Source: Saccoglossus kowalevskii
Taxonomy: Eukaryota > Hemichordata > Enteropneusta > Harrimaniidae
Length of the DNA stretch: 50,021 nt
Reading direction: 5' to 3'
Assembly: GCF_000003605.2 (NCBI RefSeq)
Contig: NW_003148770.1
Span: forward strand, 1-50,021
The notes under the pieces were generated by a model, which was not told where the DNA came from, did not search any database, and saw nothing but the letters and a program-made list of their open reading frames with translations. The position numbers and the translations under genes are program-made. This document shows, piece by piece, positions 3,509-49,307 of this stretch; positions within the stretch are counted from its first letter, which is position 1; each line of letters begins with the position of its first letter.

Positions 3509-17146
<13,638 letters not shown>

Positions 17147-23669: not shown

Positions 23670-24205
23670 TCACATAAGAGATGATTTCATGTTAACAGCG
23701 AGGTGCTTACGGATTCTCTCCAACACCAGGTGGAAATTCTGTTTAAACAGTTTATCATTACTGAGATCAATCTGCACAGTTCTAGCCAGCATCTTCTTAA
23801 TACCGGGCTGCGCTGTATCGGGCGGCCATGCGACAAATCGCAGCATTATCGGAACTATCGGTTTATTCAGATACTCGGCTAGTGAGAGATCCTTAATACA
23901 ATTATCAGATTGGATGTACCGTGGAGTGATACAGCATAAAACCACGGCTGACGATTTCATGTTGCGTTGTATATTCAGCTGTAGCGTTTCTGTAACACTC
24001 CCGTCCATCTGACTGGTAGTTGAACTTCGTGAGCTGACGCTGCTATGTCCACGCTGTGCCATGGTAGGGCTAATATCGGCCCAGCACGGCAAGCCATTAG
24101 ATTCTAATATTCTCCTAATCTCCAACACCTTGGTTTGCATGTCCCACTGGTAACTGATGAAAACCTTAGGTTCTGGTAGCTCTTCTCCAAAAGAAAGCGT
24201 AGCTG
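23670..24205 (-). CDS. TIR/SAM gene exon 4: TIR 3 and C-terminus
   Basis: 536 nt ending in a stop at 23670-23672. Contains LPEPKVFISYQWD (box 1), LPCWAD (where related TIRs have VWxD), a Ser-rich insert of about 17 residues (roughly 565-577), SSAVVLCCITPRYIQSDNC, KPIVPIMLRF and AWPP. The position that is catalytic Glu in related TIRs (Cys+3) is Asp, D616. Confidence 0.93.
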
Positions 24206-27200
24206 CTATGAAAAAGATGAAATCATATCAACATCACAATATTATAGATGTCAATTTCATATCAGTTATTGGGATTGGAGATATATGTCTGCTCCATTTG
24301 AAATACAACACTGATAGTGGAGCACATTTAAACCAAAAATGTATTATATGCTAGATCATTATGACTTATTTTGATCATAGACACACCTCATTTACATATA
24401 AAGTACATGCATTACACATACAAATGTACTACTGTTTTTATTTGAAAGATCGCCCTGGGATGTTTTCACATCCATGCCTGACAGATCGGCTTTCTCATAC
24501 AGTAATTTCAGTCTACACTTGGTACTATTCAATCTTTTTTACGCATGACTGAACGTAACTACAGGTATGTGGCAAAGGAAAACCAAGTGCATATAGATTG
24601 TAACATTTCCTCGGTCAGCTTGAATGACTTTGACTCCATGCCATATATGGATGCCATGAGTGACAGGATGCGTGAATTCACTTTTTTGATTGGATAGCAT
24701 GTCAAAATTATTGTTACAACGAACTTGCATTATATATTTTTGAGGGAAAACAAAGAGTACAGGTACCTAATCTGTTTGATGTTCATCATGAGCATAACTT
24801 GGATGAATCAGCGTTATTTTTGTCAGTATTTACTGTGGAATACTTTATTTTTGCTGGAATTAATTTTCGCTGAAAAGGCTTTTTAGGCATTTTTTATGGA
24901 ATTTATTTACACTGATTTTTAATGAGTAGAATGTGAAATATAGGAAAAAAAGTATATTCGCTGGATTTTATTTTCACGGTATCATCCCTTCAGCGAAAAT
25001 AGCGAAAATAAATTCCAAGCGAAAATAAAGTATTCTACAGTATTTGTTTTTACAGCTTGAATATATCGCCAAGGTGCTGAAACATCACGGGTGGATCATG
25101 GGTGATCTTTTGCAGTGGGATGAGTTTCAGACAAATATAATGGTAATTCAATATATGTACCCAAACTCGTCTGACTAACCACCCATCCCCCCAACTTTTG
25201 GGGCATTTCTATTTTAGGGTTCACGTTTAGCTAAGTGCCAATCTCTGCCAAATTTGACTGTCTAGTCATAAAACGTGCTCAGTGAATATTGTTTGACTTT
25301 TCCGCATACACATGTTATTGCAAAGTGCTCGCTATTAATATTATATTGTGCTTTTTTTGGAACCAGAGGGTTATTTTAATATGTAAATTCACCCAGTTTG
25401 ATGTGAACTGTTCACATTTCTACTGTCTATATTTAGTCTAAGCTAATGGGTCCTTTTCTTTTTTGGAGGGGGTAAATAAAGAGTGTTGTAAATTTAGATT
25501 TCAATATCTATAACTGTAGCGTTTTTCGCAGTACAAATCTGTAAAATTTTGAGAAAATGCAAAAAACGTAAGCCATATGTAACAAAGACAAGTTGATGCA
25601 ATGCACATACCCTGTGAGGTTGCCAGTACTTGTAGAGGTTTCAAGCCTTCCGCCATTCTGTTCAGATATGCTTGTTCGAGTACCACACCCGGTACTTTGC
25701 GCAGCGGTTTGATTTGATGTTCAAGTACGTCCATGCTCTCGGCGTACATCTTCGTTTCAAAATCGATGGCAGGACATTCACCTAGCAGTGGATAAATAGA
25801 ATAAATGTTAGTCTTTTAATCACCAGTTACCTCAAATTTTGTCTGTTGGCTCCAAAATCAAGGTTTATTTCCAAAATATTGAAGAATACAAGAAAAAAGT
25901 GCAGAAAAAATTGGGCGAGAAAGTCAGGTGATAACAAGCCATGCATGGCACAGTCCCCGTTAGTTATCAAATTTAAGATATATAGTTTTGTTTAAGGTAA
26001 TATAGCTGGAATATAACCATGTCAGGAATATGATTTTTTAACATTAAAATCAGCATTCAAAATCAGCCATTGTGAATACATGTATATATATAACATGATG
26101 TATAACGAATATAAAATTTAAATATAATAAGTCAAAGCATTTATAAGATATGGCTCTAGAAGCCCAATCATTAAAACAAAATGGCCGCCAGTCAGCCATT
26201 TTGAATCCAATCTGAAAAATATAATGACGAGCATCAGGAACCCGTAATGTATGTATCAAGTTTGAACGAAATCCACCCATAAATGCTTGATATTTGATGA
26301 TTTTTTAGCACAAAAATGACCACCATTCAGCCATTTTGAATAGGATAGTCAAACCAATATATCTGTTTATCTATGTCTAGAAGCCCATTCATTAAAACAA
26401 AATGGCCGCGAGACAGCCATTTTGAATCCGATCTGAAAAATAAATAATGTGCATCAGGAACCTGTAATGTCTAATATATGTACCAAGTTTGAACAAAATC
26501 CATCCATAAATGCCAGAAATGCTTGATATTTGATGACTGTTTAGCACAAAAAAGGCCACCATTTGACCATTTTGAATAGGATCGTCAAACCAATACAGTA
26601 AAACCTGTCAAAACCGACCTCTGGATAAACCGACCTACTGTCAGAACCGACCGATTTATGTAGTCCCGAAATTTCTCCATAGACACCTATGTTAAAACAA
26701 CCTGTGAAATCCGACCATCCGACTTATTTAGCAAGTTGCAGAGCCACAAACACAGTGTAGCGTTGATGAATACCTCCACTTTGATGAACGTATACCGACT
26801 GAAGCAATGTATGACGGCGATTGGGAGCAACAGATTGTTAAGAATTTTATTGCAGACAAAGAAAACTATGAATCTACAGACAACGATGACATAAATTGCA
26901 ACAACAGTCAAATTATCAACCCCCACAACAGCAGTGACTTGACGGTGGCGATGTGCTAGACATGTTGACGAGATTACAAAACTTCAATTACTTGACAGAT
27001 ATCCAAAATTTCATAATTCAAACGGAAAACAAAATTGTTGAAAAAAGATGTTCTTTAAAGCAGTCAAAACTTGATGATTTTTTTACATCGTAATTTGATT
27101 CATTGACTTAACAGCAAAATCGACTGTCTGCATAAATTATGATAATTACTTGTAGCTCTCGTGAACTTACGTTGTGATGTCATTCAAAATAGACGCCTTC

Positions 27201-30200
27201 AGTTACGATACGCAATACTTACCCGGTCTGTTCCAACAGTTATTTTAATGTTTATTGATTTCATGTACATACCATAATATTCTTGTCTTGTTTGGTAAAT
27301 TATTTTATTGAAACAATACAATAAATGTAAATACATGTATAATCACCGGAGGCAAACTCCGGTGTCTTTCATTTGNNNNNNNNNNNNNNNNNNNNNNNNN
27401 NNNNNNNNNNNNNNNNNNNNNNNNNNNNNNNNNNNNNNNNNNNNNNNNNNNNNNNNNNNNNTTCCATGTTTACAGCACATGTAATTGTTGTTTCAATCGA
27501 AGTCACGCCCACCCTGAATAAACCGACTCCCTCTGAAAACCGACCATAGATCCCAGTCCCATTCATGGTCGGTTTTGACAGGTTTTACTGTATATCTGTC
27601 TATCTATGACATGATGTATAATGAAGATTTAAAATTTGAACATAATCAGTGAAAGCAAGTCAGAGATATGGCAGGAGAACCACATTCATTAAAACAAAAT
27701 GGCCGCCAGTCGGCCATTTTGAATCTTATCTGAAAAACAAAATTATTTGCATCAAGGTCCCATAATGTCTAATGTATATACCAAGTTTGAACAAAATCAA
27801 TCTGTAAACAGCCGAGAAATGGTTGATTTTTAGGATTTTTTAGCACAAAAATGGCCGCCATTTGGCCATCTTGAATCAGATCGTAAAACAAAATGATGTG
27901 CATCAAGGTTCTATAATGTCTAATGTAATGTATATACCAAGTTTGAACAAAATCCATCTGTAAACGGCCGAGAAATGCTTGATTTTGATGATTTTTAGCA
28001 CAAAAATGGCCGCCATTCAGCCACCTTGAATCAGATTGTGTAACAAATTGACATGCATATGTATAATATCATGTATTATGTATGTGTGAAGTTTGATTGT
28101 GATTGGTCCAGGGATTTCTAAGATACAGGTCCAGACGCACGCACACACGCACGGACACACGGAGGTCAAAACATAAGTCCCCGTTTTCGGACTGCGTCCG
28201 AACGGGGACTAAAAAGGTTAAACGCCATGAATGCTAAAGTCAGCATTGGTCACTTCTCATTCACCTAAACCTGTATATGTTTTTCAATATAAATTATTTT
28301 TAAAATCTGTGGCCAATAAAAATTTTAAAATCTGTGGCCAATAAAAAAATCTGACAATTAGGATTAAGATGAAAAAAAAATTAGACAAAAAATTATTTAT
28401 TATATTTTTCTGCACTCCTACCATTAATTAATATAGGTTGAAATTTGGAAAACGTTTCACAAAAATAACACAAGAGGGCACTCAAAAGTTTAAAGAGGGC
28501 GCTGTTTAGGAAGAAAACTAGTCAACCATGAGTCACGTTGCGAGAGGACATTGTTGCTTGTAATATATTAATTATTAAATACGTGCTCTATATATAAAAA
28601 CACTCCAGGTTTCCATTTCCTGCTAAATGGGAAACGATAACAATTGATTACGAGAAAGGTTGGAAATTAAAAAAATAACACGACGTTTACCCAACACGGC
28701 TTTCACAGAAGGCCTCAACTTTGGCCACACATTCTTGAACATTGCAGTAACCAAGGTTTTTCCCAGCCAATCAGCGAATAGCACCTCATGGAAGACAAAT
28801 GGAGATGATGCAGCCGCTTCGGTCAGAACAACAATGACATGCTTGGCTGTTGCAACGTGGGGGCCGTTGACTTGTAGAAACTCGTCTTTTGACTGACCCA
28901 GCTTCTCATGTGACAGTACCTGCAATGCATTATGGGTGAAATTAGTTGTCAGTCAAGAATAAGTACAGTCTATATATGTAAAAATTACCTGTCTATAGTG
29001 ACCACACATTTAGGCAGTCCCAAGGCATAACGTATGATCAACCTGTGTATAAAAACCATCTGGCTTATGAGACAATACGTTCAGCATTATCTTTGTAGTT
29101 TAGCCTTGCAATTTGGTTCAGGGACCAAAATAATAATTAGCATTCTGTTTATAACAGAATTTTGCATTCCTGAAAAGCCATACTAATCAACTCAAATTGT
29201 TCCAACAAGTACTATTTTATGTATTATATAAATGTACAAGTTGATGATCCATTAAAAAATAAAGTCTATATAAAGACCATTTTGAATAAGTCCCTTGAAT
29301 GGTAGCTATACGCAGGTTTGACTGTTACAACATAATGTTAATATTAAAATATTATTATTATGATAAATTATGGAATATTAATTTTTTGAAGATTGTACAA
29401 ATTTCATATTCAACGTTCCATAATTATGTAGCATGTGTGGAGAAGGAGAGATGGTGAATGTAATGCCATAACAATAGTCGCAGAAGGTGACTACACAGAG
29501 GTCAATGGTTCTTTGATTTAGTAAACCTGTGCAGTAAACAATTCAACTATAAATCCCAAGTAATACTGAGTAAAGCCAGAAGTCACCAATGCATGACATA
29601 TCTAAGCCGAACTCAGGCGTGACCTCTGTAACGTGTCTAACAATGCAGAATCATTTGGTAGTAGACACTTCCTGGAAACCATAAAACAAACAAATACAAC
29701 CCACATGCATCAAAAGATGATAATTTAACAGTCACGGCGACGCTAGAAACACTATATCGGTGGAGCCGATCAGCATGCAAAGTTACGGCGGTGTGGTGTT
29801 ACTAGTAGCATACTTTGCGTCAGGTTTACTGATAAACGTGGAAATAAATGAGGTCAAATTAGCGACTAAAAAACTTTATAGTATACAGCTCATCAAAAAA
29901 TCAAAGCTGGAGTGGAACAACATGCTATTACTTCAGTACTGGGTAGATATAATTAAATACACAATACCATCGACGTGATATAACTTCGGTAGATATACTT
30001 AGCTACGCATTACTGAACATGCAAGTTTTGACAATACTGTAGCTGTGTATGCCCGAATACTATACATATATACACGTACCTATAGCTCAATATTAGTATA
30101 CTTAATGAACCATAATTTTTCAAGTGCAACTTTTAGTGCAAAGTTTTGAACTAATGATTTCTTTTCAAATTCTGAAGCAAACAGACAGGATTCCCTGTTG

Positions 30201-33200
30201 CATGCATGTCTGGAGAGCATGCAGTTATGTAGTATTGTCTGCAAAACATTCAATACTACTGCCACTGTTTTCTAAGAGGCAAAAATAATTTCTGGGTCAT
30301 TGATATTTTTTACCCTAGCAACAGGTGTTACTATGGCATATGAGTATCATAGTGTACATGTAATTATAATGACAATCACAGTATGCTGCATGTTTATTCA
30401 GTATTATGACCAAATTGACACTCCAAGGATACCAGAGTATGACATCATAATTTGGTACTGTAAAATGACTAATTTTCACTGGGTTTAAATTTCACTGATT
30501 TACCATTTCAGGCATATTCAGTGGGTTTTAAATTCACGGTTTTATCATTTAGATAATGTGTTCTATGCTAAATTTTACATATTCACTGTGTTTTAATTTA
30601 GCACATTATTCCAGTCAGCGAAATAAGCTAAATTAAAACCCAGTGAATAATTACCCCTTTTACAGTATTTTGGGGCTTTCGCAAATACATGAACGTAATG
30701 TAATGGTAGACATGTATAAAGACACTCTCTTTAATACTAGAAATGTACAAGGGGTATCCAAATTAAAAATATTTTGTATAAACTTGCATTAAGACTGGAA
30801 GAGGGCGGTCAATGTAGTATATATCAGCACAATGGTGACATGAAAATTGGTTTTAATTTCTACCAAACCAAAATAAAGTCGGTAGGCTTTAACTGGATTG
30901 TAAAAATGCATACACAATGTACATCTAAGGCCAGACTGTTATTATCCCTTGTTTCGCAAACCCACCGAATGAACGTGAGCCAAAAATGAAATAAAAATAA
31001 AATTTTATTTCAGCGTAATTTCTCGCGCCCGCCGACTTGCAAAAAAAATATTATTTTTATCTTCATTTTTTTACCGCCTGCCGCATAACAAATCCAAGTT
31101 GCATTTTTGTGGGAGTATCATGATCAAAGTACCGAAGTCTCGCTCAGATGAGAAACAAGGTTATACATGGAATAAAATGTTATTTCATTTCTTCTCTCCG
31201 ATCAATGATCTCACTTACAATTCTTTGAGAATCACACAAATCTAATGGGAAAAAAAGAATTTATTTTATTTTTTTCCGCCCTCCTCAAAAAAATTGCCTT
31301 ATAAAAACTCGAGAAACAAGAACTAAAAAAAGTCTGGCCTAAGAGAGGATTTTTGTTGAACTTCTACAAGATGTTATGCGTAAAAACATCTGTCATAAAA
31401 ATCGAATGATTTGATTTTGAACTTGAATTTGTTTTACTATAGTTCAATGTCAAAATACTGATCATGGTGTGGATATTCCCTTTTGTGTTTGTCAAAACTT
31501 TATGTTTTACTGCCACTACGACCTGTTTCTCAAGTTTTTTTTTAGTTTTTTATTTACAGCTTATTGTTTAAAAAAGGACAGTGGTCATTGTTTGTTTTTG
31601 ATAAATGCATTGAATTCCCCACAATCTATACATGCATATTGCACTGTATGTTACTAGTATGTATGTGAGTTTTGATCTGGGTGAAATGAACACAGTGCTT
31701 ATAGGTTCATGTACTTTAATACATGTATAAAACTTAGCACCATCTACTGTAAAGGGATTAATTATTCACTGGGTTTTAATTTTGCTTATTTCGCTAAATT
31801 AAAACCCAGTGAATATGTAAAATTTAGCATAGAACACATTATCTAAATGATAAAACCGTGAATTTAAAACCCACTGAATATGCCTGAAATGGTAAATCAG
31901 TGAAATTTAAACAGAGTCAAAAATTAGTCATTTTACAGTATTTTCATATTGGTATGTACCGGTAATCCACACACATGTGTGGCAACGCTCTTTAATAACA
32001 AATTTTATAAATATTTGACTGAAAAATAATCATTCAACAGTACTAAATGTCCTGTCCAGGTAAGCCTTCAAATTACAGATGGTCAGTTTTATCAACATAG
32101 AAACTCTCTTCTGTATTAAACCTGGAATTACAGTTAATTGTGATATACGAGCGAAGTATACGTTCTCAGGTGCACGTAGAGTTTCTCTTTTCTCACAATG
32201 ATTCATGCTGACTGTTTCTAAGGAAATGTAGTGTTGGTTGCATAGCAACACATCTGCGTTGCAAATCACAGAGTAAAAAATTGAGCTACTTAATAATCAA
32301 ACTCGTCTTTTATGGATTAAGAATTGTTTGTTTTAGTCACAAAGGATTTAGTGTTAATTGGGTCATGATGATAAATGGATATTTTCGTTGAAAGGGTTGT
32401 GGTCGTCATGCGCGAGTTCAACAATCTTGTAAATAAACAAGGTAATTTACATGCAATGTACATCACTATGGCTCCCATATACACTCCACGGCGTAACGGC
32501 CATTAACCTTTATCAATGTTTTAAGCAGCAGAACAATAAAAAAATACAAGTTCATTGTATCATCAACGTCACTGATGTTCACTATAAAAGTTCACTTTGT
32601 GAATATATCATTCACCCTGCACTTAACACTAACAGTACAATTGTAAACCAATGTAGCTGCAAAAATCTTCAAGAACTAATCAAGGCCATTAATTGTAGCG
32701 TTGCCATGTTCAATGGTATCTCTAATCTCAAGAAAATAGACGCGGTGTTACAAAGGATAAAGGGGCGCCACTACAAGAAAAATTACAGAGTATCTTACAC
32801 ATAGTGAATAGGTAGTCCATTATGTGAGCAATTTCGAAATGTGTTACAGTCAATTCCAAAATAAATCGCTTGGATTAATAACGCTGGGTACACACAAGCG
32901 GTGCATGGATAACGAGTCAAAGAGCAAAGTCTATTTAGTTTAAAGTCACAGGGAAAAAAGCCACAGAATAAAAACTGCATCCTACAATCTATGCAATGAT
33001 CCCTTGCCCAACTACTGGATTGATTGATCAGATGGGTAGGTAATATATTTATAACCAAAACTTGCATAACTACATAATATAATATATTGGGGTAAATAAC
33101 AAGAAATTGTTAACTTCACCTTGATTCAAGAGTATCATTGTATGACACTAGGATTTTTTTTAGTAAGATGGATAACAATTCACCATAAAGTTAAATACTT

Positions 33201-36200
33201 TTTAATTATTTTTTGGAAAATTTAAAAAAAAAATCAGCATTATGACCACAAGTGCTCAAATGATGCAATAAGACACCTCACTGCTGTTTCAAAAAATGTT
33301 TGAAAAGTTTAAATAAACATTACAGTTTTGCAGAATGTGGAACCAACAACGCTGAACTGTTTATAGTACAATGGCATTCCTTCACCAGCAAACTAAAAGA
33401 CACACTCAAGACTTTTCAACTCAGAAGACATTTCTCATTTTAAACATCCTTTTCATAATCCCCAGACAAGAAAATTACAATACGAGCGGGTCAAAGCACG
33501 CCACTTGAAAGGTCCATTGTAAAGAATACGGCAACAATGGTACATGCAATCGTGCACCCCTACTAAGCAGATAGTTAATAAATTCAGATACGCAGTTTGG
33601 GAGACGACTCACCTTATGACCATGTAATAATGACGTGTTGAATTAAAAGCGCAACAGACAATAAAAGTTTACAAGGCACCGTGCCACTTGAAGCCTGGCT
33701 TTGTTGTACAAACAACAAATGCCAATCATGTCACTATTAACCGTGTGTGAATGAAAATTTGACGTTTTTGATTTTACCAATCAGCTGAATACTGTAAAAT
33801 GATTAATTTTCACTGGGTTTAAATTTCACTGATTTAGCATTTCATGCATATTCAGTGGGTTTTAAATTCATGGTTTTATCATTTAGATAATGTGTTCTAC
33901 ACTCAATTTTAAATATTCACTGGGTTTAAATTTATCGCATATTCCAGTCAGCGAAATAAGCAAAATTAAAACCCAGTGAATAATTAACCTTTTGACAGTA
34001 CTTAATTTTATCTTCAACATAAACGTAGCAATATTAAAGTTAGATGCACCAATATCAAAGCTAACCACAGAAATATAGTATTTGCTGTTATACCGTAATA
34101 ATGTTTTAACAGAGACGCATTGTAAGCCAAAACTGTTGACTCAAGTACACAACATCCACAATTTCAAACCGAGGAGACCAACACAATTTTATAACATTTG
34201 CTATGAGCAACTCACAGTAATATGGTAATAATTATGCAGGGTTTGAACCTCTCAGAGACATCAAAAGCAATTGTCTCAACTCGTTGCGTTTTTGGAGTCC
34301 CGGCAATTTCGAGTCCCGATTGTGTTAGTACTAACTCTGTAAGAAGAATATTTACGTACATTGCAAAGTACATTTGCCCCTTAAGCAAATAATTTATATT
34401 TGTTTTAATTTTAATCTGGACTTAATCTTAAGGATTCCAAATGCTGCAAATGATAATCACACCAGAAAACAAGTCTATTCTATAGTATTTCTATGCACAT
34501 TTCATCAGAGAAAAATTTGTCAAATGCAATTGAATAATGATGCACAAAACCGCAGTGAACAGACAGTTTTAATAAACGAGGGACAAACAGAACATCTGTG
34601 TTGCTGTCAGTAGGGAATTGAAGCTCAAGTCCCTTCAAGCAGCCATGGACGAAAACTCGTTGGGTCAGAAAACTTGAATGATTTTCCATCTGAAGTCACA
34701 GGCAACAATGATATCAATGGCTGCCTTTCAGAATGTGGAATTGAGCAAAATAAATCCCAAGTTGATTGGATCTAAAGCCGCTATGAAACTTGAAGTACTA
34801 GTATGTTTGAGTAAACAACATAACATATACATGTAACAACAACATATTTACTTTGCTGTTTTGTAAAGATGATTTTAATGATGGATATTCAGTCACATTC
34901 AAGTTCAGACAACAAATGCTGTCACAAATTTAATTATGTGTATATAAACAAAAACGATATAAAAAAAATATCTTAAACTAAGAAACGCTGATTTTAAAAT
35001 TCCCAAGACAATAAATTCCCAGACCCCAACCACCTGTTGATGAAAATACTGTAAACGTATTAATTATTCACTTAATTTGGCTATTTTTGCTGTTAAGTAA
35101 AATTGGCTAAATTAAATCCACATGAATATGTCAAAGAACAATAGCACTCATTGTTTTCCTGCAAAGTTTGAGAACTTGAAATCCAGTGAAATTGCTCAAA
35201 ACATCGAAATAGTGAAATTAAATGCCAGTGAAAATAAATGGTTTTACAGTATCATATTGTAGTAACACACTTCTAAATTTAGCTTTAAAAATATAACTAA
35301 CGAGTAATAAAAACAACTATATTTTAGTTCAAGTTATTTCGTTCACTCAATTCAATTCCCTGATTGGAAGCCAGCACATTCACGATAACCTTTCGCACAC
35401 GTTATCAGTACGATTCAGATTCAATAAAAAAAGTAACCTTCATTCTCTTTTGTTAGCAATGGACACAAAGTGAAATTGAACGTGTTAACACAAACACAAG
35501 TAGAAATCAAATACGTTCATTTGCTTTTCAGCAAAACTGGCAAAATGAAGTCTATTGTTACAACAAGTTGGGATGTTTACATGGAAACACCATACCAACG
35601 CAAACTTTCTCTAACGTTGAATACACTACCAGTAGCGTGTCGACATACACTTAGCTGAAATGTAGCGCCAAGGTGTAAACAACCGTGTTTTGAGTTACAA
35701 TCAGAATGACTCAGCTTATGGGGTACTGATTTATTGCAAAGGAAAACGACGAGCCGTCAATTCAGGAAGAGTTGTTCATTTCAAACACAATGTCATGTTT
35801 ATTCAATGCCTACAAAGCAACAATGCTACAACGTACCGTAGTGAAAAAATTCTCATTCAATTTATACTGCACATCGAAATATGATGCAAACCAATTTGCT
35901 CGTTCCCCTTCACCACAATACTATCAAATAGCAAAACGGGCGAATAAACATTTATTTGCGTCACAAAGAATAACATAGTAAATTTAATGGCTTTGACCAT
36001 TATACTTTGGTTGGAAGTCGTCAGTTTTTATGGAGAAATGCACAATAGGAAGTCGTACAAGTGCCGCTAATTAAAAATTGAGCTACATTACAGTGGGTAG
36101 AAAAACACGAGTGTTTCACCACTTGACCTCCGATTACACATTCACTCCTTAGACTTGAGCATGAATTTACAAGTCCAGGGTGAATTTTAGACTCCTCTCC

Positions 36201-39200
36201 TCATAATTGCAATAATTAATCTAATAATCATAATAATTAACCAGCAAAAACATTGGAGCAACATTTTATAAGCATGCAATCTGACTTCGATAGTTCTGTT
36301 AAAAATCTATTGGAATTTACGTTCTCCACTTACGACAGGTGGGGTTTCTATAACTTCCGAACCCAGATTGTTCGTACCACCCGCTACATTACATGTAAAT
36401 TTCTAGATCATCTGATTGGTTACTCTGACATTAAGGCTAGCTACTAAAGTAGGTGATATAAATGTATTCTATTACACATATAGATATACTATACTAGGAC
36501 AAATCTGAGCCGTTTTTTTACTGTATTAAATTTTTTTTCCCCTTGGAATTCAAACAAAAACAATTTAGCAAGCTGCGAATCATTTATAGAGAAACATTTC
36601 TTTCAACTGTATTCCAGATTCTCCCAATAAATGAAAAGTATTGATTATACAGTAGTAAAAAAGGGGACATTCACCCACTCTAATTAGCCAACTGACAAGT
36701 TAGTTGCTTTGACTAAAATGTATTTTAGTTTCAATTATTTGGAATTAATTTAATTTTTACGACAAACAAAATGTTAAGTTTAATCTATTGAGCATTAAAG
36801 TAAAATTGTCACTATTCACAAAACGAAACCCGTCATTTAAAAAAAAAAAATGTTTTTACCAAGATATGTAGGTAACATCAAATTAAGTCTACTTGGTTCA
36901 AAATAAATGAAAAAATTCTAGAAAAATTCAGAAAAGTTTTCAAGATTGTGTTGAAAAAATTTATGGTGTTCATAAGGTTAAGCACCTTGACACCAATATG
37001 TCATGCACTGCCCATAATACAGAATAAAACTTGTAAGGCATCCAGCGTTAATTTAATAATTGCCGTCCAGTTTCACTAAATCATTCACAATAAAATTTAA
37101 TTTTGCTAAATTAAATTCAACAGAATTTTCTATCAATCTATCATTTTAAAACCCAGTGATTATACATGTACCCCAAATATTGAAATTAAACCTTGGTGAA
37201 AATCAAATGCTGTTACGATATCCTCAGCAGCATATGTAGGAAACCGTAAACTTCACAATTATTTTGTGAGTGATCACGACACAAGCAATCAAACAGAGAT
37301 TTGTACCAACCAAATTAATCAAGCTTGGCTGAATGAATTTATTTTACAGGTGAGTGCATTCTACTATACAAGATTTCAAAGAAGCTTGACACTAATATAT
37401 TGTAGGAGAATTCATCACAAGGTTAAAGTTATAGAAGATTTGATATTGCAGCAGGTTTTAAATTCACTGGTTTTTAAAGAGAACAGCATATTATGTAGTT
37501 GAATTTGTATATTCAAGTTGAATATTACAATGTAATTTAATAATGAGAATGCTATTAAAAGTCGAGTTTTGTCACTATTCATAAAACAGACCTGCTTATT
37601 TGTTTTCAACTTTCTACAGAAATGTTGATTAAAACTGTTAGAAACTATCATCTATTTGGTCAACATTACAGTAATTAGATAAAACAATACAAAAAGGTAG
37701 GATATATTGTAAGCTGGATTTTTTTCATCATGCATCATTTTTAGTTTTTATGTTTAATTTTGTTTACAGTGTGAAAATTCTGGATAATAGATTCAGTTCC
37801 ATTGAATTCTCATTAACAAAATTTGCGATAGGTAATGAATTTTGAATAGGGTAAGGTGGTACACTAGTATTGATTTTGATTGATTTTTCAATTATATTAT
37901 ATTCAAGTCTATTCATAGTCAATATCAATGATTGAAATCAACATACTGTCTTTGCATACATGTATATCTTAATGCTGTGTGTTGCTAGGCAACATACACC
38001 AAAATATACACTAACCAAGTTGTAACCATGGTAACCTACTATGCAATATAAAAGATACTTTGATATTGAAAACATTTGGGTTACAGGTACATTTGTACCA
38101 GTTGGCTGTCACTGGGACAGGACTTGATTTTCAAAGTTGTTTACGGAACTCATTTTCGAGGCATGTTGAAAAGGTTTACACTCACTGAAACTGTGTAGTG
38201 AAAATTTAAGTATACAAAGGCAGTCAGGTGGGGCATCAAGGCAATGACTCGGTGTCATATTTCAAGCCTTGTTGGCTTTTTTTATTGATTGTTCTTGTCT
38301 ATATTTTCCCTCAGGTTAGTGATCTGATTAGGGAAAAACAGTGCAAAAGACAGATACGAGATATGCGACTACAATGACAACATTGCTGATGATTTCATTG
38401 ATAAGAAATCCAAGTTGAAACAAACGCATATTTCTAAAAATATTAATGACACGTTAGCGTGAAAGAAATGACTTCTCTTAGATTGTTCAGTCTACTGTTC
38501 CAGCGTGTTGGTACGCTAGTATAGTATGCATCACTCAACGTACAGACGATCACCTGAATTATTTACTTTTCGACAATTAAACCCTAGATATCGAACTATT
38601 GATGGGGTTCTGTATTTCTCAGAGCAATTGTAATTGGCTTGCATATGGAAAAAAAGAATTATCGGTATTAGACAGATTATATTATCTGTAATCTAGAGGC
38701 TGAAGCAATAAAACTGTTTGGTACGATACATAATTTATAGAGTTCATTATTTATGACCGTGCAGTTGGAAAACAAGTATACTGTGATATGTAAAGGTAAA
38801 GGTGCTTACGCAAACATGTCCTTATTTTCAACATGACATACATATTTCTGTCAGATTATGGAACATATATTACAACAAATAAATAGAGTTTTTTTCAAGT
38901 TGCATGCACTTTAATCTGAGTTCATTACTCCCAAATTTTGAAAAGTTTATGTCTATGTCAAATTTATGACATCAGTAACTGCAGTTTAATTATTGCTAGA
39001 ATAATCATTATGTTTCATACAATATAATGTTTAGAGTTTGTAATTTTCTAAAGAGTTGAAAAAAAAAATTTACCACGAGAGGTCGTTTAATAACACAAGA
39101 GAGCGATGTAGCCTTAACCCATCCAAGAGTTCACAGAGTAAACAACATTATTCAATAAACCTTTTATCCAGAGGAAACTGGTTAGAGACTTTTACAATTT

Positions 39201-42200
39201 ATTATTTTTTTGCATTGAATAACAATTTTTTTATACCTGAGTGGCTCAACATTGAGCATGCGGAAACTAATCACTGCTGTCACTTACCCTAGAAATAGTT
39301 ATGGTTTAGCCAAGACTCATTAGATATTTTCATAATTTTAATTATTAATGAATATACCACAAATATACTTTTTCCAATATTTCAGTATAAAAAATGTACA
39401 GCATTGGAATACCGTGACCGGTGATTAAATTACCATATGGTTAGCCAATCAAATTAACCTCTGCTCTTATTGAGTTAAAATGTTGCATTGCAACAAATCA
39501 TTGTTGTGAGTTGTGCTCGAAGTGTCAATAAAATGTTTTTTTAAGTACAAGCAAAGAAACAAACAAATTTGCTGCTTTGCCATGTATGTATATCACAAGA
39601 TTGGCCAATTACCTGTTTGTAAACTCTCGGTAAACGACATAATCAATTTGTATTGGCCGACAACTACCTCCATTATTAACAATTCTGTTAAGCCTAAAAA
39701 GGCAATTAGGAGCTGCATATTATAAGCAATACAATGTTAAAATGTCGCTGAAAGTAGTGAACTGTTTGATTGACGACTAAATATGCCAAGGAAAAGAAAT
39801 AATATATTTTCATTGTTTCTAATTGGTTAAATGTTTAATATTTTACTCAAAATTGTAAGCACACTACACTAGCTGCACTGTTTATGGATGATTTCACTTG
39901 TGTGTTTCTATAATAAGTTTCAACTCTGACATGATTTATTTTGTTAATATGGTACATTGTAAGAGGACCAGCTCTGCAATGCAGCATGAAGACAGGGTAA
40001 GGCTTATGTTGGTAAAGTAAACACTTCTGGTTAAAAGGATCTTAAGGGAGGTGAAACGCAAGATGCAAGGTACTCAACTATGGTCAAGGAGGATTTCAAT
40101 AACTGAAAAGAACCACTATTCAGTTCCTTGACTATGACAGAAAGGAATACGACTTGAAAAAGTTGCTTAGCAAAGGTCAAAGTTCACTTCAATTTGACAA
40201 TTAAAAAAGTGAATGAGATAGTTTTGAATAGAATATCATAACAGGCTGGGCTATACAGACAGATGACAAATTGTACATGCTGGAGGTGTATTCAATAATA
40301 ATCAAGTCTGTGTTGTGATCTGCATTGTGTACGAAACTTGGAGAGCATAAATAATGGCCGTCGCATTGAGACCAATGAGTTGTGTGCCTTGTCAGACATC
40401 TCAACACTTCACGACACACCCCAGATTAATAGATGTACTTCAGTGTTGGTGTGTTCATTAAAATGATCTGCAGCCCACAAGATCTGTGTTTTCTCAATAT
40501 GGTTGAACTGAGCCTCCCCCATTCCTGGTCATCACCAGACAAGGAATACAGAACCCCCTGATGAGTTATTTTATAAACCCCTCCATTTGAGAATACTATT
40601 TGAGCTAATAATAAAAAAAAGTATGCAAATTAATATTGTTATGCAAATTTGACAGCAGTGCCATCTATGATGTAAAAAAATATGCGTATAAATATTTGAT
40701 ACCTGTAAACCCATATATATGAAGTTCTTTGGAGACCATATTGAAAGCATGCAGCCATACGTCAAAAACACATGTACATAAACGACCACAAATACATACT
40801 GTAAAAGCATTATTTATTCACTGGGTTTTAATTTCACTATTTTCACTGACAAGTAAAATCTGCTACAATAAATCCATGTGAACATGTAAAATAACAATAG
40901 AACTCATTGTTTCCATGCCCAGTATGTGAACTTAAAACCCAGTGAAATTGCTCAAAGCATTGAAATAGCGAAATTAAATGCCAGTGAAAATAAATGGTTG
41001 TACAGTATATAAGTGCATGTAAAGTTGGATTTGTGGATGTTGTTGTGTTAGAAAAGAGAACAATAGAAAGTACAGAAGAACAGGCTCTGATTTCCACTTG
41101 ATGACCTACCTGTAAATTCTTTTTCCTCAAATCCTGTTTTAAGTTCTGTGCCAATCTTACATCCGTTGGATCGTACACTAAGTACACTGTATCCTGCTTC
41201 GCACGGACAGTTCTCGCCCTTAGGTGCCAATTATCAGCAACTTTGTGTTCTTTCTCCAGGATGGCAAGAATCTGTTGAAGGATTTTCTTGCGGACAACTC
41301 GACTGTCGACTCCAAGGAAATCCTGCATATCCTGATCATTCATGGACATCAGGAGAAAGCCATCAACTTGATTCTCAGCAAAACTCTGCCGATAGAACTC
41401 TCGCACACCGAGATCAAACAGCCATTCCTGTAGGTCGTACTGGCTCCACTGGCATATTTTCTTTTTTTTATACTCCCCGGTAAATTCCTTGGTAGTGTTT
41501 GGAAGCAGCGGAGTGTTTATCATAGCAAACTTCTCCAGTTGCTCCATCAAGCTACCTACCACTACTGATGCTTTCTCTGCAATACTACTTTTAACATGAG
41601 CTCCTGTTAGATCAACAAGCTCATGCAAAAACTCGTTATACATGCGGGGGATTTCAGTAGGAGTGAACAAAACTATGAAAATCCTTGGGACCACATTTCC
41701 TGATCGGACTCTCTCCAGCAAACATCGTCCTTCGTACACGGATACCGGACACTGAAAGTAACTGTCTGACAAGAAACATATAGAGGCTTTGCATCTCTCC
41801 ACAGCTTCCATTCTTTGAGAAAACCATGCAGGACTGTCTGTATTTTTCTCATCTTTGTCGAACCATATATCCTCACTCAAATTATTTTCTTTAAGTTGTC
41901 TAACAGTTTCAGCTACAAACTTTCTCTCCTGAAATCCAGCGTCAGGTGAGTACGAAATATAAATGCATTTTTTCGCCTTCTTGGCCTTACCATGCGCTGG
42001 TTTAGGGTTTCCTGGGGCAGTCATCTCCAGCGATCTCTCCATTTTCTTAGCTTCTGTTTTTACGATGTCCTCCATGTTTACTTGTGGTATCTGAATGTGG
42101 TCTGAATCGGATGGACGTTTTTTCTTCTTTTTCACTTCTGATCCACCAGTTCTGTTGGTACTCGCGTCTCCGGTTTCGTTCTCGTGGTGGCCATTTTCTT

Positions 42201-42240
42201 GCGGGTGATCCCGACGATCTGGATTTTCGCCGTCGCTCAT
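23670..42240 (-). CDS. TIR-SAM-TIR-TIR multidomain protein, 688 aa, four exons
   Basis: Reading on the minus strand the coding exons are 42240-41110, 28919-28691, 25781-25611 and 24205-23670, all GT-AG with matching phases (0, 1, 1). The ATG at 42240 is preceded in frame by TAG 48 nt upstream. Order: a charged, low-complexity N-terminus with KKKKKRP (37-43) and KAKKAKK (85-91); Toll/interleukin-1 receptor (TIR) domain 1, about 92-235 (CIYISYSPD); SAM domain, about 264-331 (WLFDLGVREFY, ENQVDGFLLMSM); TIR 2, about 350-454 (TVYLVYDPTD, HVIVVLTEAA); a helical linker; and TIR 3, about 523-680 (KVFISYQWD, IVPIML, WPP). No signal peptide or membrane segment, so cytosolic or nuclear. TIR and SAM domains mediate self-assembly, and TIRs are signalling adaptors or NAD-cleaving enzymes; a role in innate immunity or cell death is inference. 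It differs from SARM1, which has ARM-SAM-SAM-TIR. Confidence 0.88.
24832..25041. mobile_element. ACTGT-ended MITE with GCGAAAATAA arms
   Basis: Left ACTGTGGAATACTTTATTTT, right (read inward) ACTGTAGAATACTTTATTTT, flanked by TA. Fold-back interior with TTTTCGCTGAAAA and AGCGAAAATA words. Lies in intron 3 of the TIR/SAM gene. Confidence 0.8.
25611..25781 (-). CDS. TIR/SAM gene exon 3: linker between TIR 2 and TIR 3
   Basis: 171 nt, phase 1 on both sides. Encodes GECPAIDFETKMYAESMDVL and a Leu/Lys-rich predicted helix (KPLRKVPGVVLEQAYLNRMA), ending LATSQ. No domain recognised; codon phase, acceptor and donor all agree with the neighbouring exons. Confidence 0.85.
25830..25935. mobile_element. 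Truncated TTAA-type MITE, family A
   Basis: Only the right half of the family is present (TTTTGTCTGTTGGCTCCAAA, AAAGTGCAGAAAAAATTGGG, ending GTCAGGTGATAACAAG). It abuts the larger element that begins at 25952. Confidence 0.7.
26745..27093 (+). pseudogene. C-terminal remnant of a pogo/Tigger-like transposase
   Basis: Two frames joined by a frameshift near 26940: first VDEYLHFDERIPTEAMYDGD and WEQQIVKNF, then GDVLDMLTRLQNF and, before the TAA at 27091-27093, KRCSLKQSKLDDFFTS. An ending of the type KQxxLDDFF is characteristic of the acidic/C-terminal tail of Tigger transposases. The DDE catalytic domain is absent, so it cannot be active. Confidence 0.65.
27376..27461. other. Assembly gap of 86 N
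   Basis: A run of N inside the pogo-like element, next to a small hairpin (CCGGAGGCAAACTCCGG). Probably a repeat-caused assembly gap. Confidence 1.
28691..28919 (-). CDS. TIR/SAM gene exon 2: rest of TIR 2
   Basis: 229 nt between TGCATTGCAG and GTAAAC. It continues TIR 2 in phase after a 12.2-kb intron: ATAKHVIVVLTEAA, FVFHEVLFADWLGKTLV, NVWPKLRPSV. E422 (in FHEV) lies eleven residues before LVTA, the same spacing as the catalytic Glu of human SARM1 before IVPI. Confidence 0.9.
28965..29324. mobile_element. 360-bp element with CAGTC ends
   Basis: The left end contains CAGTC and CCTGTCTATAGTGACCAC with CAGTCCCAAGG; the right end, read inward, is CAGTCAAACCTGCGTATAGC, then ACCATTCAAGGGACT. 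The left arm has a small internal insertion. The element starts 45 bp upstream of the acceptor of TIR/SAM exon 2. Confidence 0.65.
30457..30666. mobile_element. ACTGTAAAA-family MITE, subfamily 1, copy 1
   Basis: Left ACTGTAAAATGACTAATTTT and right (read inward) ACTGTAAAAGGGGTAATTAT, flanked by TA. Inside are CACTGGGTTT and AAACCCAGTG arms. Opposite orientation to the copy at 31746. Confidence 0.85.
30929..31339. mobile_element. 411-bp PIF/Harbinger-like MITE
   Basis: TAA target site at 30926-30928 and 31340-31342. Left GGCCAGACTGTTATTATCCC, right (read inward) GGCCAGACTTTTTTTAGTTC, both followed by TTGTTTC. A 3-bp TWA site and GG-starting ends are typical of PIF/Harbinger. No coding sequence. 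Confidence 0.78.
31746..31939. mobile_element. ACTGTAAAA-family MITE, subfamily 1, copy 2 (inverted)
   Basis: Left ACTGTAAAGGGATTAATTAT, right (read inward) ACTGTAAAATGACTAATTTT. Nearly the reverse complement of the copy at 30457; they are 1.1 kb apart. Confidence 0.85.
33791..33999. mobile_element. ACTGTAAAA-family MITE, subfamily 1, copy 3
   Basis: Left ACTGTAAAATGATTAATTTT, right (read inward) ACTGTCAAAAGGTTAATTAT. Same orientation as the copy at 30457. Confidence 0.85.
35048..35250. mobile_element. ACTGTAAAA-family MITE, subfamily 2
   Basis: Left ACTGTAAACGTATTAATTAT, right (read inward) ACTGTAAAACCATTTATTTT. The interior matches 40798 (AATAGCACTCATTG, ATCCAGTGAAATTGCTCAAA, AATGCCAGTGAAAATAAATG). 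Confidence 0.82.
36783..36977. mobile_element. TTAA-flanked MITE, family B, shorter copy
   Basis: TTAA at 36779-36782 and 36978-36981. The left end TCTATTGAGCATTAAAG and the right end, read inward, CCTTATGAACACCATAAA are diverged forms of the ends at 23189-23546. Confidence 0.65.
40798..41006. mobile_element. ACTGTAAAA-family MITE, subfamily 2, beside exon 1 donor
   Basis: Left ACTGTAAAAGCATTATTTAT, right (read inward) ACTGTACAACCATTTATTTT. On the minus strand it begins about 100 bp after the splice donor of TIR/SAM exon 1. Confidence 0.83.
41110..42240 (-). CDS. TIR/SAM gene exon 1: basic N-terminus, TIR 1, SAM, first strand/helix of TIR 2
   Basis: A 377-codon exon from ATG at 42240 to KKNLQ|GTAGGT. 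It contains the whole of TIR 1 (DIWFDKDE, SICFLSDSYF, candidate catalytic Glu at E170 in VYEGRCLLER), the SAM domain and the beginning of TIR 2 (TVYLVYDPTDVRLAQNLKQD). Reading straight past the donor adds 88 intron codons with no domain similarity, so splicing here is the better model. Confidence 0.93.

Positions 42241-43653: not shown

Positions 43654-49307
<5,654 letters not shown>

Follow-up and report, generated by a model that had tools for sequence, protein, structure and literature searches.

A predicted four-exon gene for a TIR-SAM-TIR-TIR protein in the acorn worm Saccoglossus kowalevskii

A gene whose predicted product carries three TIR domains around a single SAM domain, in the order TIR-SAM-TIR-TIR, was found on the minus strand of the window, the 50,021-nucleotide stretch of Saccoglossus kowalevskii contig NW_003148770.1 that was analysed. 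Our favoured reading, with a probability of about 0.6, is that of a cytosolic protein, its TIR1-SAM exon single-copy as found, which would work as a scaffold or adaptor.

Gene model

The spliced frame is built of four exons and codes for 687 residues followed by a stop codon; all introns are of the GT-AG type, with phases 0/1/1. The order and phase-matched exons proposed in the initial annotation were therefore recovered, with the length corrected from 688 to 687 residues. The features are as follows:

41110..42240, minus strand: exon 1 (aa 1-377), containing a basic N-terminus, TIR1, the SAM domain and the start of TIR2; start codon ATG at 42240 preceded by an in-frame stop, donor CAG/GTAGGT
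41650..41970, minus strand: TIR1 (aa 91-197); 29.9 bits against TIR_2 alone, 30.3 bits at 41644-41964 in the six-frame scan
41266..41451, minus strand: SAM domain (aa 264-325); SAM_1 E 2e-8, best solved relative SARM1 SAM1
28691..28919, minus strand: exon 2 (aa 378-453 plus one base), the TIR2 core; joined TIR2 score and codon score
27376..27461, no strand: 86-N assembly gap in intron 2, unreadable
25611..25781, minus strand: exon 3 (171 nt), the TIR2 end and a linker; codon score and exon-skip comparison
23670..24202, minus strand: exon 4 (aa 511-687 plus stop), TIR3; TIR_2 55.8 bits, stop codon ending at 23670

TIR2 is interrupted by a 12.2-kb intron. Neither the exon 1 tail nor exon 2 on its own gave a TIR_2 match up to E 10 in Pfam, a search whose filters discard most matches above about E 0.1, and the unspliced read-through of the junction gave none either, whereas the joined exons scored 25.6 bits (E 1.9e-5, below the 28-bit cut-off), a pattern that supports the join. 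When 714 AG acceptors were ranked by the similarity of the joined product to the SARM1 TIR, the exon 2 acceptor came first. It came fifth in the same ranking against TIR3, where the better-placed acceptors all lie inside exon 2 itself, and the top six of both lists fall within one exon.

For the joins between exons 2 and 3 and between exons 3 and 4, the support consists of the splice sites, the matching phase and the codon usage. In the test of the exon 3 acceptor, an equally long frame was left by 10 of the 168 acceptors, and homology did not single the exon out (rank 10 of 168 against TIR3, in a list headed by the self-match of exon 4, and rank 108 of 168 with the SARM1 TIR as reference). 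Its codon score, 0.298 bits per codon, was reached by none of 946 open intron windows, all of which exon 2 also exceeded; these windows are not independent tests, since they overlap and come from the same introns that served as background to a training set of 659 codons, drawn from exon 1, exon 4 and the FAT exon of a neighbouring gene. Skipping exon 3 yields a 630-residue protein with frame and domains kept. Exon 4 contains no methionine ahead of TIR box 1, so that an upstream exon is needed, and the assembly gap leaves room for a missed exon in intron 2. Taken as a whole, the four-exon gene is, as predicted from its sequence, a real gene for a TIR-SAM-TIR-TIR protein.

The gene is located between two plus-strand genes. 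The first, a focal adhesion kinase gene at 8376-17143, comprises the last part of a tyrosine kinase domain together with a FAT domain whose match ends near 17.1 kb, and among solved structures is nearest to focal adhesion kinase 1 (E 1.4e-29). The second, a squalene epoxidase gene of several exons at 44473-48853 (matches from 44.5 kb), stands head to head with the TIR gene. Tandem repeats make up 20 rows in the window, including a 156-bp unit in 2.4 copies at 27696-28058, which lies within intron 2 and close to the gap; another, at 12737-13108, has a 29-bp unit in 12.9 copies.

Domain content and relation to SARM1

Pfam recognised TIR_2 in three stretches of the spliced protein (E 1.7e-28) and SAM_1 once (E 2e-8). 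TIR3 is the highest-scoring TIR, with 55.8 bits alone and 51.2 bits in the genome-wide scan; TIR2 as an isolated domain reaches 26.0 bits, under the curated cut-off of 28 bits. The highest mean hydropathy over 19 residues (Kyte-Doolittle) is 1.38, bearing out the earlier statement that the protein has no membrane segment. No other domain passed the Pfam cut-off in the protein, the scanned minus-strand introns or the 5' flank, which speaks against extra domains from missed exons in all but the unreadable 86-N gap: three-frame minus-strand scans of 21.6-41.2 and 42.2-45.5 kb, at E up to 1, returned nothing beyond TIR3 and a sub-cut-off match to DUF5846 (E 0.037). Rfam gave nothing at gathering score, NCBIfam gave no match near any cut-off, and the matches in PADLOC were weak and partial, the best being to bSEFIR (E 1e-4) across 32 residues of TIR3. 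Single-sequence AlphaFold models, computed for exon 1 (aa 86-377) and for exon 4, were of unusable quality, with mean pLDDT values of 36.2 and 38.3.

The closest comparison is with SARM1/TIR-1, in which a SAM domain likewise adjoins a TIR. The best solved relative of the SAM domain is SARM1 SAM1 (E 1.3e-8, 21 of 64 aligned columns identical), and none of 500 shuffles reached the score of the alignment of TIR2 with the SARM1 TIR, for which z was 7.8 locally and 6.8 globally. This alignment was rejected as proof of kinship, as it depends partly on a DW..K..VTA match in a register other than the one favoured below, and TIR2 alone did not return SARM1 from the solved structures at E up to 10. SARM1 differs in its ARM repeats and tandem SAM domains; here a single SAM is present, Pfam found no ARM repeats in the protein, the introns or the minus strand of 42.2-45.5 kb (the 86-N gap being unreadable), and there are three TIRs, one of them ahead of the SAM. 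By architecture the protein is therefore not SARM1, its SAM being single and ARM repeats not having been found, and its order is unlike that of SARM1, as initially annotated. The same holds for MyD88, which shares the pairing of a TIR with an assembly domain and a weak similarity to TIR1 (E 0.39) but has a death domain and one TIR; Pfam found no death domain in the 687 residues, and the TIRs number three.

Each TIR used alone as a query retrieved no credible relative among solved structures, the MyD88 similarity of TIR1 being of the weak kind just given, and a profile of all three TIRs matched MyD88 weakly (E 0.0091-0.013). TIR1 is not clearly like TIR2, TIR3 or the SARM1 TIR, its scores being equalled by 33 to 379 of 500 shuffles.

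Relatives in the genome

The genome searched comprises 572,110,611 bases in 4830 contigs. The sole match of exon 1 apart from itself was a SAM stretch of weak score (E 0.45), and the TIR1-SAM exon has, at the level of sequence, no convincing second copy in these 572 Mb. With E 1e-3 as the limit, 43 TIR_2 stretches were counted among the candidates scored, and this gene accounts for two. When TIR1, SAM, TIR2 and TIR3 were compared separately by tblastn with 42 loci (the window's own, L016, left out), relatives of TIR3 within the limit of E 1e-3 were present at 8 of the 41 TIR_2 loci outside this gene. At the same loci TIR1 had no relative better than E 0.29, that one carrying an internal stop, TIR2 none at E 0.5, and the SAM domain no match at all. 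Such scans ignore introns, so that intron-split domains can escape them, as TIR2 of this gene did. Exon 4 had no relative in prokaryote genome contigs, and neither exon 1 nor exon 4 had one in viral contigs.

The TIR_2 repertoire of the genome is rich, and one of the matches lies within an open frame of 9244 residues at C4202. Two adjacent TIR domains at C4186 (L005 and L010, about 114.6-116.1 kb), each split between frames and related to TIR3 with the Glu described below kept, probably form one tandem-TIR gene.

Candidate catalytic residues

The segments that may correspond to the catalytic site are CPVSVYE in TIR1, SPFVFHE in TIR2 and SDNCIKD in TIR3. For SARM1, we take residue 642 to be the catalytic Glu, with a Trp four residues before it. 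At the column that, judged by spacing, may correspond to this Glu, the C-terminal TIR3 has an Asp. Six of its eight relatives are readable at the column, both relatives at C843 ending before it; five of the six have Glu (two at C4186 and one each at C1644, C563 and C3691), and the sixth, at C3164, has Leu, so that the loss of Glu in TIR3 is not unique. Compared with these relatives, TIR3 is in addition lengthened by an insertion that follows strand B. Any NADase role of TIR3 has probably been lost, judging by these residues.

TIR1 and TIR2 have, by a judgement of spacing, a Glu at the place equivalent to that of SARM1, without the SARM1 Trp, which in this register is replaced by Phe in TIR2. 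Counted on the sequences, the TIR2 Glu lies nine residues ahead of the Lys in a GK pair, an interval also seen in SARM1. Local and global pairwise alignments and MAFFT did not place the candidate Glu on that of SARM1; the pairwise alignments match DW..K..VTA instead, putting a Thr of TIR2 on the SARM1 Glu. As the Glu of TIR1 and TIR2 may sit at the catalytic position, NADase activity could still reside in TIR2 or TIR1. The "NAD-consuming complex" of the initial annotation is consequently left with weak support, in its favour the Glu residues placed by spacing and against it the Asp of TIR3 where five of six relatives have Glu.

Proposed function

In SARM1, the SAM domains form an octameric ring and the TIR cleaves NAD by means of a catalytic Glu, and TIR assemblies are divided into scaffold and enzyme types, as described in the accessible text of PMC8635717. 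By analogy with SARM1 and other SAM domains, the SAM of the present protein would polymerise and bring copies of the chain together; the clustered chains would bring their TIRs together, and these would recruit or template other TIR proteins, here presumed as partners. An immune role is suggested by the type of domain. Given that TIR3 is devoid of the Glu and that both other TIRs have diverged, a scaffolding output is likelier than NAD cleavage. Consistent with a scaffold are the three TIR_2 domains and one SAM in a spliced frame, with a supported TIR2 join and a coding-like exon 3, the lack of a membrane segment or further domain, the Asp of TIR3 and a SAM nearest to SARM1 SAM1; against it count the possibly catalytic Glu of TIR1 and TIR2, and the Leu at C3164, by which the loss in TIR3 is not unique.

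An enzyme of the SARM1 kind, in which TIR2 would cleave NAD once the SAM has clustered, regulated by TIR1 and TIR3, would account for the SAM1 likeness, the TIR2 alignment that beats its shuffles and the spacing of Glu and Lys. We consider it unlikely, because none of the alignments puts the TIR2 Glu on that of SARM1, Phe stands for Trp in the favoured register, TIR2 alone failed to return SARM1, TIR3 has Asp and ARM repeats were not found. Somewhat more doubtful still is an inhibitory decoy, whose degenerate TIRs would bind the TIRs of receptors or adaptors and block signalling: the weak TIR_2 matches of TIR1 and TIR2, the lack, at the 41 other loci, of any relative of theirs with an E value below 0.29 and the Asp of TIR3 where its family has Glu are all compatible with it, but divergence by itself does not show inhibition. 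That the architecture is partly an artefact, of two genes or of an exon missed in the intron 2 gap, is very improbable despite that gap and the two joins lacking homology support, as a start codon is missing from exon 4 ahead of the TIR, the intron phases match, exon 3 is coding-like and the introns hold no further Pfam domain.

Discussion

The scaffold or adaptor favoured here has several partial counterparts in print. TIR-SAM hybrids have been published for amphioxus, a transcript having been recovered for one of them, Brafl1_131196, which resembles our protein in having TIR and SAM in one chain; the available text of that report does not give the number or order of its TIRs, and the comparison is one of descriptions, not of sequences (PMC2575513). 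The ecTIR-DC are invertebrate TIR families, several of them cytosolic, with unusual partner domains and a proposed adaptor role, features shared by the protein described here as an invertebrate, cytosolic TIR protein with an unusual partner; their family 6 combines two TIRs with ARM-like and death domains, which were not found here, and is set apart by its description in the accessible portions of these papers (PMC6321704, PMC5549309, PMC6836662). Other surveys of invertebrates, as far as their available text goes, pair TIR with other domains (PMC5094078, PMC9334734, PMC10236652, PMC8260672, PMC4083563, PMC4346834, PMC7075850), and in that of Aplysia, among them (PMC9334734), a gene with TIR and SAM domains is named SARM, so that proteins like TIR-SAM-TIR-TIR may be filed under that name. 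Two tandem TIRs in a eukaryotic protein are described for TirE of Dictyostelium in the accessible part of its report (PMC13142454).

No paper naming the orders TIR-SAM-TIR, TIR-SAM-TIR-TIR or SAM-TIR-TIR was found in a literature search that lay outside most subscription journals and supplementary tables, and TIR-SAM-TIR-TIR seems to be a novel combination of familiar modules. The invertebrate TIR families of ecTIR-DC, for which Gerdol 2017 is the main catalogue, may already include it.

As a more speculative proposal, which we hold to be rather improbable, the protein would represent an undescribed animal family in which SAM assembly unites three TIRs that have evolved along different lines, one of them a scaffold deprived of its catalytic residue and another still capable of cleaving NAD; both types of TIR assembly, scaffold and enzyme, would then share one chain. 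Three unlike TIRs and a SAM in a single chain could serve to test whether the two modes coexist, and the protein extends the little-studied set of invertebrate TIR proteins that are not receptors.
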